A stretch of DNA of 8,146 bases from NCBI GenBank assembly GCA_900696645.1, contig CAADGV010000001.1, positions 1-8,146 of the forward strand. The letters are read 5' to 3'. Shown here one piece after another: positions 3,057 through 7,027 of the stretch (within the stretch, counting starts at the first letter, position 1; every line of letters begins with the position of its first letter). A model generated the notes under the pieces. It saw nothing but the letters and a program-made list of their open reading frames with translations, searched no databases and was not told the origin of the DNA. Made by a program: the position numbers and the translations under genes. The DNA comes from an uncultured Chlorobiota bacterium (lineage in GTDB: Bacteria; Bacteroidota; Ignavibacteria; UBA10030; UBA6906).

Positions 3057-3884
3057 GTGAAGGTAAATAATCTTGTCGTTATTTCAGACACACATTGCGG
3101 TTGTAGATTGGGGCTATGCCCGCCCGAAGCGGCACTTGACGATGGGGGCACATACAGGCATTCCCGCTTACAAGCCAAAGTATGGAATATGTGGGAAGAG
3201 TTCTGGGGGGAGTTTGTTCCTCACGCAACCTCGAAAGAACCATACGCCGTAATCCACAACGGTGACGCTATTGACGGCGTTCATCACAACTCCACGACAC
3301 AAATCTCGCACAACATCGAAGACCAAATCGAAATTGCCTACAACATTTTGAAACCGGTTGTGGAGAAATGTGAGGGCAGGTATTACCACATCAGGGGGAC
3401 AGAGGCGCATGTCGGCAAATCCGCAGTACACGAAGAAGCCCTTGCCAAGAGACTGAAAGCAATCAAGAATGAAGAGGGGCAACACTCACGATATGAACTT
3501 TGGAAGTATTGCGGCCCCGCATTAGTTCACCTACTCCATCACATCGGCACAACGGGGAGCCAAGCATACGAGGCAACGGCTGTGCATAAAGAACTTGTTG
3601 AGAGCTACGTCGAAGCCGCCAGATGGGGAAGGAAGCCACCCGACATGATTGTGCGTTCCCACAGACATCGTTATTTCCGAGATGAGATTGCGACCGGCAC
3701 GAAGATAGGGCACGCGGAAGCCGTTGTAACACCCGCATGGCAAGGGAAAACTCCTTTTACTTGGAAAATCCCCGGCGCACGGTTATCTCTTCCACAGTTC
3801 GGGGGGATTGTAATACGTTACCACGACGATGAACTTTACATCAGGAGGAAAGTGTGGACAATAGACCCGCCAAAACCAGAATAA
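3057..3884 (+). CDS. Calcineurin-like metallophosphoesterase, phage type
   Basis: This 275-residue protein carries the ordered metal-binding motifs of the calcineurin-like phosphoesterase fold: SDTH (D11, H13), GDAID (69-73), GTEAH (114-118) in the place of the usual GNH[DE] motif, HH at 161-162, and SHRH (H202, H204). The family uses two metal ions to hydrolyse phosphomono- or phosphodiesters; the substrate here cannot be read from sequence. The variant third motif lacks the usual Asn, so catalysis may differ from the classic enzymes, although H118 could still act as the catalytic His. There is no signal peptide or membrane segment, so it is probably cytoplasmic or packaged. The GTG start at 3057 follows a G-rich stretch (GGGGGGTAGG) that can serve as ribosome binding site, 21 bases after the preceding gene. 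Its 3' end overlaps the next gene by 31 bases, suggesting coupled translation. It might process nucleic acid ends or nucleotides during infection, which is inference. Confidence 0.85.
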   Translation: MKVNNLVVISDTHCGCRLGLCPPEAALDDGGTYRHSRLQAKVWNMWEEFWGEFVPHATSKEPYAVIHNGDAIDGVHHNSTTQISHNIEDQIEIAYNILKPVVEKCEGRYYHIRGTEAHVGKSAVHEEALAKRLKAIKNEEGQHSRYELWKYCGPALVHLLHHIGTTGSQAYEATAVHKELVESYVEAARWGRKPPDMIVRSHRHRYFRDEIATGTKIGHAEAVVTPAWQGKTPFTWKIPGARLSLPQFGGIVIRYHDDELYIRRKVWTIDPPKPE

Positions 3885-4663: not shown

Positions 4664-4692
4664 TTGACATTGCAGGGCTGAGATATTATTGT
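4664..4692 (+). promoter_or_regulatory. Strong sigma70-like promoter for the 70-residue gene
   Basis: A perfect -35 box TTGACA (4664-4669) is followed after 17 bases by TATTGT (4687-4692). The sequence continues as TATTGTTG, close to the TAnnTTTG -7 element of Bacteroidota-type promoters, with 19 bases between TTG and TA. Transcription would start about seven bases downstream, at or next to the ATG at 4699, which would give a leaderless or nearly leaderless mRNA. It lies after the peptidase gene and gives the next gene its own transcript. Confidence 0.65.
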
Positions 4693-5093: not shown

Positions 5094-5245
5094 GTTTTTC
5101 ACACCGTAAGAATAATCCCAGAAAAACAAAACGGAAACTTACCTCCCTTTGCCGTGCTTCATCAAAAGAAAGGGGGTAGGGGGATTATCGCCTGAAAAGA
5201 TAGGCGACTTTGCGCTCGCAAAAAGAATGCGAGCGCGTTTTTTTT
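5094..5245 (+). ncRNA. Possible structured RNA or structured 3' UTR
   Basis: Several helices fit together on the + strand. GTTTTTC (5094-5100) pairs with GAAAAAC (5121-5127). ATAATCCC (5112-5119) pairs with GGGATTAT (5181-5188) and encloses CTCCCTTT (5143-5150) with AAAGGGGG (5169-5176), which has one G-U pair. CGCCT (5189-5193) pairs with AGGCG (5202-5206), and the last helix is the terminator. The first helix crosses the second, so both would form a pseudoknot, and helices two, four and the terminator are placed end to end. No dedicated promoter was seen, so this may simply be the 3' end of the mRNA from 4699. I could not match it to a known RNA family. A coding-like open frame lies antisense to it (5038-5184). 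Confidence 0.35.
5212..5245 (+). terminator. Strong Rho-independent terminator
   Basis: A perfect 9-bp GC-rich stem GCGCTCGCA (5212-5220) with TGCGAGCGC (5228-5236), a 7-base loop, one G and then eight T (5238-5245). The T-run is only on the + side, so it ends rightward transcripts. It lies 30 bases before the end of the leftward gene chain, so two transcription units converge here. Confidence 0.92.
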
Positions 5246-5274: not shown

Positions 5275-5370
5275 TTAGGAGAGTAGTCGGATGATAAAAT
5301 ACACTACCGCAGCGAGCAGGAAGACTGCCGGAAGAAGAGAGAATCTGTCGTTCATGTACTTTGGGAACAT
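5275..5370 (-). CDS. 31-residue single-pass membrane protein
   Basis: This short leftward gene runs from the ATG at 5370-5368 to TAA at 5277-5275. It encodes MFPKYMNDRFS followed by one strongly hydrophobic segment, LLPAVFLLAAVVYFIIRLL (about residues 12-30), and a terminal Ser. That is nearly all one transmembrane helix behind a short polar N-terminus with two basic residues. A second in-frame ATG at residue 6 would give a 26-residue form. The start overlaps the stop of the upstream 44-residue gene (TGATG), the usual sign of translational coupling. Small phage membrane proteins of this kind include holin-like, lysis-regulating and superinfection-exclusion proteins; which applies here cannot be told. 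It ends the leftward chain just before the convergent terminator. Confidence 0.6.
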   Translation of the reverse strand: MFPKYMNDRFSLLPAVFLLAAVVYFIIRLLS

Positions 5371-5504
5371 CACGCAGCCGATTTCTGTTCTTCGTCGAGG
5401 GATGAATACGCAAGCACAAGCGGAGAACGTGGGAGTTCGGCTTGGTACTTCTTGAAACGGGGGGAAAGTTCAAGTGCGGGTTGACAGAGAATGTTGCGGA
5501 GCAT
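5370..5504 (-). CDS. Small hypothetical protein (44 aa) in leftward chain
   Basis: The gene runs from the ATG at 5504-5502 to TGA at 5372-5370. The product begins MLRNILCQPALELSPRFKKY and ends SSLDEEQKSAA. I do not recognise it. Composition is ordinary and protein-like, with a basic centre and an acidic, charged tail. There are no membrane segments and a single Cys. It overlaps the end of the 74-residue gene by 35 bases, and its stop overlaps the ATG of the membrane protein, so it sits within a continuous overlapping chain. No strong ribosome binding site is seen, so coupling is likely. It may act with its two neighbours, which is inference from packing only. Confidence 0.5.
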   Translation of the reverse strand: MLRNILCQPALELSPRFKKYQAELPRSPLVLAYSSLDEEQKSAA

Positions 5505-5694
5505 TGTTACCCGAACGGCCCGTCAGTCCTTTGACGGGATAGAGTTTGACGATTTCCCATGATGATCTCACCAAAAGGTCGTTCAAAAAAAATGGGAATG
5601 CGGCCTTGAGTTTCCGTCGCAGTTCTTCAATCGCTTCTTCGGCATTGAAAGATTTTTCAGACTGCGGATGCGGTAAACATTCAGTGAGATTCAT
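5470..5694 (-). CDS. Small hypothetical protein (74 aa) in leftward chain
   Basis: The ATG at 5694-5692 has a GAGG ribosome binding site five bases upstream on the - strand and overlaps the stop of the preceding leftward gene as ATGA, which supports this start. The N-terminal half (NAEEAIEELRRKLKAAFPFF) is a clear amphipathic helix. I do not recognise the family. The second half is less certain, because a run of eight A on the + strand (5585-5592) lies in the middle. Shifting frame there gives a different tail (ERPFGEIIMGNRQTL...) that stops two bases before the next ATG, which would pack more neatly. As read, the protein ends in SLSTRT and overlaps the 44-residue gene by 35 bases. Confidence 0.55.
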   Translation of the reverse strand: MNLTECLPHPQSEKSFNAEEAIEELRRKLKAAFPFFLNDLLVRSSWEIVKLYPVKGLTGRSGNNAPQHSLSTRT

Positions 5695-5889
5695 TTGAGC
5701 CTCAGAACTTGTGCTTCGCGCCTGAGTATCTTCTTGTGAAGATCGTATTTATTGGAAAGATAGAGTTCGCAGGCCTCTCTCAGTTCGGGGTGAAGAACGG
5801 GATGCCATACAATGTTGTTGGAAACAAACTTGGAAATAATGGAATCCGGTTCGCCGAAGTAACGGGGCGTCGGTTGAAAAATACCGCAT
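5691..5889 (-). pseudogene. Frameshifted small gene (~65 aa) at head of leftward chain
   Basis: On the - strand an open frame reads QPTPRYFGEPDSIISKF and continues through HPELREACELYLSNKYDLHK to QVLRLK and a TGA at 5693-5691. That stop overlaps the next ATG as ATGA. Composition and packing are those of a real gene, but the frame has no ATG, GTG or TTG start. An ATG at 5889-5887 (MRYF) is one base out of frame. The run of five A at 5877-5881 lies between the ATG and the open frame, and removing one base joins them into a 65-residue protein. The cause may be a sequencing error, a true inactivating indel, slippage, or an unusual ATT start at residue 'IF'. I do not recognise the family. The + strand frame across the same bases is a shadow. 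Confidence 0.5.
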
Positions 5890-5949
5890 TCAGCCGAAAC
5901 CTACAATACGCTATACAACGTATGAGAAAAAATTTAATCAAAAAATTAC

Positions 5950-5978
5950 TTGACAACCGTCTTGGCATTTTGTATCTT
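5950..5978 (+). promoter_or_regulatory. Strong sigma70-like promoter for the switch RNA
   Basis: A perfect -35 TTGACA (5950-5955) and a -10 TATCTT (5973-5978) are separated by 17 bases and preceded by an AT-rich stretch. TATCTTTC also resembles the TAnnTTTG element. The predicted start is near 5983-5986, just before the first complementary segment of the RNA. Confidence 0.75.
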
Positions 5979-5984
5979 TCAAAT

Positions 5985-6099
5985 GTCGGTTAGCCCTCTT
6001 TCCTCCTTCAAATAATATGTAGGAGGTAAAGTTACAGAGAAGTAATTAACAGAGGGTCGAGAAGTTTTTAAGGGCTAACCAATGCGGTTAGCCTTTTTT
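5985..6099 (+). ncRNA. Leader or small RNA with alternative terminator/antiterminator pairings
   Basis: This is a ~115-nt RNA between a strong promoter and a strong terminator, with no usable ORF. Segment 1 GGTTAGCCCT (5988-5997) is perfectly complementary over 10 bp to segment 2 AGGGCTAACC (6071-6080). Segment 2 also forms the terminator with segment 3 GGTTAGCC (6086-6093), so 1:2 and 2:3 exclude each other. Between them CTTTCCTCCT (5998-6007) pairs with AGGAGGTAAAG (6021-6031, one bulge), and TTAC (6032-6035) can pair with GTAA (6042-6045). Also, CCCTCT (5994-5999) can pair with AGAGGG (6051-6056). The layout is that of an attenuator, riboswitch or RNA-based phage immunity region. I do not recognise a known riboswitch core. 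If transcription passes 6099 it would enter the gene at 6279. Confidence 0.65.
6070..6099 (+). terminator. Rho-independent terminator with competing upstream arm
   Basis: GGCTAACC (6073-6080), loop AATGC and GGTTAGCC (6086-6093) form a perfect 8-bp stem. It can extend by a G-U and two A-U pairs (6070-6072 with 6094-6096) and carries six T (6094-6099). Its left arm is also perfectly complementary to 5988-5997, so terminator formation can be blocked by the 5' end of the same RNA. Confidence 0.88.
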
Positions 6100-6123
6100 G
6101 TTTTGGTGATGTTAAGAACTTGA

Positions 6124-6165
6124 GAAAATGTTTTCGCTGTCACAATTAAGAGTTTGATTTTGTGA
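6124..6165. promoter_or_regulatory. Possible operator dyads upstream of accessory genes
   Basis: GAAAA-TG-TTTTC (6124-6135) is a perfect small palindrome, followed by TCACAA (6140-6145) and TTGTGA (6160-6165), inverted repeats 14 bases apart. They lie just after the terminator and before the G-tract element. They could be repressor sites or an RNA hairpin. Each is short enough to arise by chance. Confidence 0.25.
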
Positions 6166-6193
6166 TGCAGTACAAAGGTAACACACGTGGTCA

Positions 6194-6230
6194 GGGGAAA
6201 CAAGGGGAAAGTCGGGGAAACGGGGGGAAT
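6194..6230 (+). repeat. Four G-tract repeats at 10-base spacing; G-quadruplex motif
   Basis: GGGGAAA occurs at 6194, 6204 and 6214, and GGGGAAT at 6224: four units at an exact 10-base period, one DNA helical turn. The G-runs (4, 4, 4 and 6 G) have loops of 6, 6 and 4 bases, meeting the usual four-tract G-quadruplex pattern on the + strand, and in RNA if transcribed. The period is not a multiple of three, so coding does not explain it. It lies about 50 bases upstream of the gene at 6279. Confidence 0.8.
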
Positions 6231-6278
6231 GGGTGATTACACAGGGGCGGGCGAATCAATCAAACAGGTAATACACTA

Positions 6279-6470
6279 ATGGGAACAGAAGTGAAACGCG
6301 GAAGCATATACGATTTTGACCGACTAAAAGTCGGTGACACGGCTCGTCATCCAATCAAGCACAGACAGAAGATTTCAAATGCGCTCTGTATGTACCACAA
6401 GTGGAACGCCGGGAAGCGGATAATCACACGCCGGGACGGAAACGAAGTCATTGTATCGAGGATCAAGTGA
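6279..6470 (+). CDS. Small phage protein (63 aa), DUF7303-like pattern
   Basis: This is a 63-residue basic protein with the pattern F-x-L-x-V-G-D (FDRLKVGDTARHP, residues 13-25), a middle KISNALCMYHKWNAGKRIITR and a C-terminal VIVSRIK. The order 'KLxVGD ... helix with K/H ... GKxxxTR ... VxVxRI' recalls small phage proteins of the DUF7303 type, whose role is unknown to me; this is pattern memory only. There is no signal or membrane segment. The ATG at 6279 has only a weak ribosome binding site (CAGG about 9 bases upstream). It is the first intact gene after the RNA switch and the G-tract element, and is followed 23 bases later by the beta-barrel gene, so the two are probably cotranscribed. 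Confidence 0.65.
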   Translation: MGTEVKRGSIYDFDRLKVGDTARHPIKHRQKISNALCMYHKWNAGKRIITRRDGNEVIVSRIK

Positions 6471-6493: not shown

Positions 6494-7027
6494 ATGATTA
6501 ACCGAAACATCGTCACGGGACTTTTGATATTGTTGTGTCTGTTTGCCGCAGTGTGGGCAGCGAATGGTCAAACCCACATCAGGGCAATGGGTGGCATTTC
6601 AGTCCCGCAGAGAACCGAGCAACCGCATCAGACAACTAAATTCGGGCTTGCGGGTGCAGGATGGAGCACGGGGATTAACGTCATGATCGGGCACATCCAC
6701 TTCGACGGCGGATTACTCATTTCCACCAGCTACGGCGACTACGATGCAAACACAACCCACATCGGGAGTCCGCGCCTCAAGCTACTCAGAGCAGAAATCG
6801 GCGCATTCACACACTTTCCATTTGTGAATCAAGAGTTGTACTTGTTCGGTTCATTCGGCAAAGCATTTCAGTTTGACCCGATACACAACAATGGGTTTGG
6901 CGGCTCAGTTGGTGCAACCTACGAAACGGCAAAGCGATACGGTATCTATGCCCGATACGGCTATTACAATCTTGGACTGAACACGGTTTCTATGCTGGAA
7001 GCCGGACTTTCGTTGAAGGTGTTCTAA
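6494..7027 (+). CDS. Predicted exported outer-membrane beta-barrel protein
   Basis: The start is set at ATG 6494 because it gives a classic signal peptide (MINRNIVTGLLILLCLFAAV, then WAANG) and follows a GGGGGAA ribosome binding site. An in-frame ATG at 6401 would put 31 polar residues before the signal and overlap the upstream gene. Cleavage is likely near residues 22-25 by signal peptidase I; there is no lipobox. The ~150-residue mature part alternates polar and hydrophobic residues in about eight strands (for example GAGWSTGINVMIG, LYLFGSFGKAF, YGIYARYGYYNLGL, MLEAGLSLKVF). It ends in Phe, the usual C-terminal signal for outer-membrane insertion. Size and shape recall small 8-stranded barrels; phage lambda Lom is a known phage example of such a protein, though I see no direct homology. 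It may alter the surface of the lysogen or infected cell. Confidence 0.7.
   Translation: MINRNIVTGLLILLCLFAAVWAANGQTHIRAMGGISVPQRTEQPHQTTKFGLAGAGWSTGINVMIGHIHFDGGLLISTSYGDYDANTTHIGSPRLKLLRAEIGAFTHFPFVNQELYLFGSFGKAFQFDPIHNNGFGGSVGATYETAKRYGIYARYGYYNLGLNTVSMLEAGLSLKVF

Follow-up and report, generated by a model that had tools for sequence, protein, structure and literature searches.

A rare three-segment arrangement at an intrinsic-terminator-like hairpin of a phage-like contig: a possible transcription attenuator

The window analysed here, which is the entire contig C1 (8146 bp) of a 4.2-Mb assembly in 46 contigs, carries an intrinsic-terminator-like hairpin whose 5' arm is complementary both to its own 3' arm and to a segment at the 5' end of a predicted RNA. 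This three-segment arrangement is real and rare, and of a kind already known. We tentatively favour reading it as a phage-borne transcription attenuator, ahead of a plain small RNA and of an antisense pair; that the RNA is made, that polymerase reads past the terminator, which way control would run and whether a three-way junction in the RNA senses a signal are matters that we infer.

The predicted RNA, ~115 nt long, extends on the plus strand from a promoter-proximal end at 5985 to a T-run ending at 6099. Its segment 1 (GGTTAGCCCT, 5988-5997) would compete with segment 3 and has its 3' half also engaged in a predicted stem, P1; segment 2 (AGGGCTAACC, 6071-6080) forms the 5' arm of the terminator and is the perfect 10-bp complement of segment 1; and segment 3 (GGTTAGCC, 6086-6093) forms the 3' arm, repeats segment 1 and is directly followed by TTTTTT. 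The hairpin and T-run (6070-6099, plus strand; 11 pairs, loop of 5) make one of the two best terminators in the window, and the hairpin leads into a U-tract as an attenuator's terminator would. Upstream on the same strand lies the promoter TTGACA-N17-TATCTTTC (5950-5980; TATCTT, then TC), with a predicted transcription start at ~5985-5986. The promoter, the three segments and the terminator are thus all found at the positions given by the first-pass annotation.

The promoter appears to be of host type. It scores 10/12 over 5950-5978, with a perfect -35 hexamer (TTGACA, 6/6), and its trailing TTTC makes it a near-fit to TTG-N20-TAnnTTTG, which includes the -7 motif TAnnTTTG known from Bacteroidota (PMC7366714). 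In host contigs, TTG-N20-TAnnTTTG is enriched approximately three-fold (15 occurrences versus 5 in a single random sequence with matching dinucleotide content), and in host stretches TTGACA-N17-TAnnnT occurs 15 times, versus 4 in one random sequence matched in the same way. This near-complete host-type promoter places segment 1 at the 5' end of the predicted RNA. An inverted repeat, ATACG-N8-CGTAT (5906-5923), lies upstream of it; it is a possible operator and may be due to chance. A second strong promoter of this type, TTGACA-N17-TATTGTTG, is located on the plus strand at 4664, its predicted start falling at or adjoining the ATG (4699) of a 70-aa ORF, which may be expressed from a leaderless mRNA; the ORF is followed by ~300 nt of low coding potential and then by a strong plus-strand terminator at 5211-5237.

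The arrangement was picked after the window was read, which makes the rarity figures that follow look somewhat more surprising than they are. Among 221 other terminators (139 host, 63 viral and 19 others), no 5' arm has an exact upstream complement of more than 7 nt, whereas the one here has 10 nt. A stricter measure, the upstream copy of the 3' arm, gives 8 nt here and never exceeds 6 nt across 62 host terminators or 7 nt across 63 viral ones. The 15 nucleotides at 5987-6001 are 87% identical (13/15) to those at 6085-6099.

The fold of 5985-6103 is more stable than that of any of 200 shuffled sequences (z -3.55; 0/200 as good), and the 5' domain by itself stands out less strongly (z -2.65; 2/200 as good). 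This domain is predicted to form a three-way junction on the plus strand (5986-6060), closed by P1 (5986-5988/6058-6060 and 5993-5999/6051-6057) and carrying stems P2 (~6002-6026) and P3 (~6030-6047). Within P2, an anti-Shine-Dalgarno-like CCTCCT is paired with a Shine-Dalgarno-like AGGAGG; a start-stop, ATGTAG (6017-6022), precedes the AGGAGG run, and no start codon follows it. Prefix folds, which represent equilibrium structures of naked RNA, together with pair probabilities predict an order of folding in which the junction persists to ~6075, the helix between segments 1 and 2 prevails at ~6080-6090 and the terminator takes over from ~6093; the leading pair probability passes from P1 (0.85) to the 1:2 helix (0.99, 6081-6090) and on to the terminator (0.95, 6096). 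Of the possible attenuator put forward in the first-pass annotation, the self-competing terminator behind a promoter stands and the fold is predicted to flip; that the flip regulates transcription is a proposal that we retain.

Predicted energetics temper the impression made by the sequence. Forming the antiterminator is predicted to change the free energy by -7.4 kcal/mol, a gain that 61 of 500 shuffles attain and that 5 of 51 host terminators surpass. The candidate upstream antiterminator is an exact 10-bp competitor that is rare among terminators and whose energy gain is ordinary; the segment match is unusual in sequence and ordinary in predicted strength. Nearly all of the full-length RNA is predicted to adopt the terminated form at equilibrium. 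By direct-path estimates, the passage from the junction into the antiterminator has a barrier of 6.7 kcal/mol; for leaving the antiterminator towards the terminator, the barrier is 5.2 or 9.8 kcal/mol according to which structure is taken as the start, and with a spread of this size the folding race cannot be called.

These properties would also suit a stand-alone small RNA that starts at its own promoter, ends at a strong terminator and exerts no control over read-through, which we regard as a real possibility. The 1:2 match would then be a by-product, either because part of the terminator's 3' half was duplicated or because it is a folding intermediate. The locus forms a discrete promoter-to-terminator unit of ~115 nt, the predicted equilibrium lies strongly on the terminator side with an antiterminator of ordinary energy, and the 5987-6001 copy resembles the terminator 3' arm plus T-run, all of which is consistent with this explanation. 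However, an exact 10-nt complement is rare among terminators, and candidate antisense targets of the RNA in three phage-like contigs were no better than shuffled controls.

If the locus is instead an attenuator, the host-type promoter would start the RNA and the first ~75 nt would fold as the three-way junction. With segment 1 held in the junction, segment 2 would be free to form the terminator with segment 3, and the ~115-nt RNA would be released; if the junction were weakened, or if segment 1 won segment 2, the terminator would not form and the polymerase would read on into a 63-aa ORF and then an outer-membrane-barrel gene. Such a switch would mostly terminate. The 63-aa ORF (6279-6470, plus strand), the first possible read-through target, matches no known family; the second (6494-7027, plus strand) encodes a 177-aa outer-membrane beta-barrel-like protein, whose PF13505 score of 28.4 bits falls narrowly short of the Pfam cut-off of 28.7. 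No further plus-strand promoter reached the scan threshold between 5950 and 7190, and therefore both genes could depend on read-through. A more specific version, in which the junction is a sensor of a ligand or protein and gates the accessory genes through capture of the terminator arm, is decidedly improbable in our estimation.

The opposite strand offers another explanation. A candidate minus-strand promoter, TTG-N20-TACCTTTG (6173-6203), would yield a transcript antisense to the whole RNA, its leader passing via 6099-5985 into small genes at ~5900-5275; the plus-strand RNA would then be a counter-transcript, and the two RNAs or their polymerases would interfere. Besides the presence of this promoter consensus, the codon scores of the minus-strand ORFs at 5691-5900 (0.21) and 5370-5522 (0.26) match those of recognised genes, and where the 5691-5900 frame ends the next ORF already begins, the two overlapping in ATGA. 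Nevertheless, the candidate promoter is a consensus match only and was picked post hoc, and the 5691-5900 frame, the first of the series, has no standard start codon and no homologue that we could find, leaving an antisense pair rather unlikely. Overall, the minus strand of 5275-5900 could encode four small ORFs in a row whose ends overlap (ATGA near 5691-5694, TGATG near 5370), the last giving a 31-aa hydrophobic peptide; none of the four has a family match.

Searches for relatives returned no homologue of the RNA. At the DNA level, none was found in phages or plasmids, nor in 100 relatives, where short matches were scattered pieces of 17-43 nt. A covariance model (R1) built from the single sequence and run on samples of the relatives, order, class and phylum recovered the window itself and weak matches, and the weak matches inspected (L084-L086, L091-L097) proved to be terminators, either ordinary ones or ones whose upstream part aligned loosely. 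When L091-L097 were scanned for upstream complements, the five that could be parsed had 4-5 nt only, the terminators of L091 and L097 being unparsed. When IMG/VR was searched with exact patterns, describing either the terminator or else the three segments or the junction, three unrelated terminators lacking segment 1 were retrieved and nothing else. The absence of homologues applies to the collections and samples searched. Against Rfam 15, no match reached the gathering score in the window; the best sub-threshold matches in 5900-6300 were at chance level, and neither a leader peptide nor a known aptamer was found in the predicted RNA. Elsewhere in the window, identity with isrK was rejected, the sole match (5188-5245, 15.4 bits) being at chance level, as was a hammerhead-like CTGATGAG at ~5086, for which an Rfam match was absent.

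Judging from its genes, contig C1 is a phage-like fragment. Its ORF 1 has matches to phage proteins without an assigned function and to the LPD38 domain; DarB-like and podovirus-type proteins are related to it at ~25% identity, and no relative of it was found in 100 relatives or the phylum sample (395 genomes). It is followed by a C39-peptidase-like protein with endolysin matches and then by a phosphoesterase-like protein (3057-3884). Relatives of the latter, 46-70% identical, occur on 27 IMG/VR contigs and one Verrucomicrobia-labelled contig. None of these loci, 27 on viral contigs and one on a genome contig, matches any other gene of the window, which is why the phosphoesterase appears to be a widely exchanged phage gene; the RNA model likewise had zero matches in them. 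The tetranucleotide profiles closest to that of the window belong to two short contigs, C2 (L014) and C35 (L046), on which matches to a phage exonuclease and to a virion protein were found; they are probably pieces of the same phage or of a related one. No overlap between contig ends was found in the stretches compared.

Collectively, we favour attenuation because of the rare 10-nt complement, the 8-nt copy of the 3' arm, the stability of the whole fold and the predicted shift in pairing, and because the promoter lies just upstream while none is evident for the downstream genes themselves. Counting against it are the ordinary antiterminator energy, the near-complete termination at equilibrium and the uncallable race, as well as the lack of a homologue or covariation, leader peptide, aptamer or Rfam match. 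Should the switch be real, it would mean that accessory genes are gated by a cis-acting RNA in a phage from a little-studied group of bacteria, and would offer a compact and easily tested promoter-switch-terminator cassette. If it is not, the locus serves as a calibration, showing that three-segment complementarity beside a terminator can look striking while its predicted energetics are ordinary.

Among known systems, the immunity locus of phage P4, to which the first-pass annotation had likened this one, has short seqA, seqB and seqC segments in the same direct-inverted-direct order near a phage promoter, and the fragment here is phage-like; only the order matches. In P4, a processed CI RNA, antisense to seqA and seqC, causes termination (PMC4825925), whereas here terminator and competitor lie within one RNA, the repeats build an intrinsic terminator, and the predicted 1:2 pairing takes the terminator arm away, which is the opposite logic. 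Instead of P4-type replication or regulatory genes, the downstream ORFs comprise one of no family and an outer-membrane barrel; no P4-type gene was found among the ORFs scanned, no immunity function or processed RNA on the fragment, and no homologue of the RNA. Membership of the P4 CI-RNA family is thus not supported, failing on mechanism and gene context, and it is highly improbable that the locus confers P4-like immunity through a processed CI-type RNA. IsrK of the Salmonella prophage Gifsy-1 (PMC4825925) has no sequence relation that we could find to the RNA described here, and its read-through and trans action have been experimentally shown; like our candidate, it is a short, terminated, phage-encoded RNA, and in both cases a longer read-through mRNA could also arise from the promoter. 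Intrinsic-terminator attenuators and transcriptional riboswitches are likewise close in layout. Unlike in those systems, there is here no known aptamer, leader peptide or covariation support, and control is predicted; what the locus shares with them is a predicted structured 5' domain, antiterminator and terminator helices that would be mutually exclusive, a U-tract and downstream genes without an obvious promoter.
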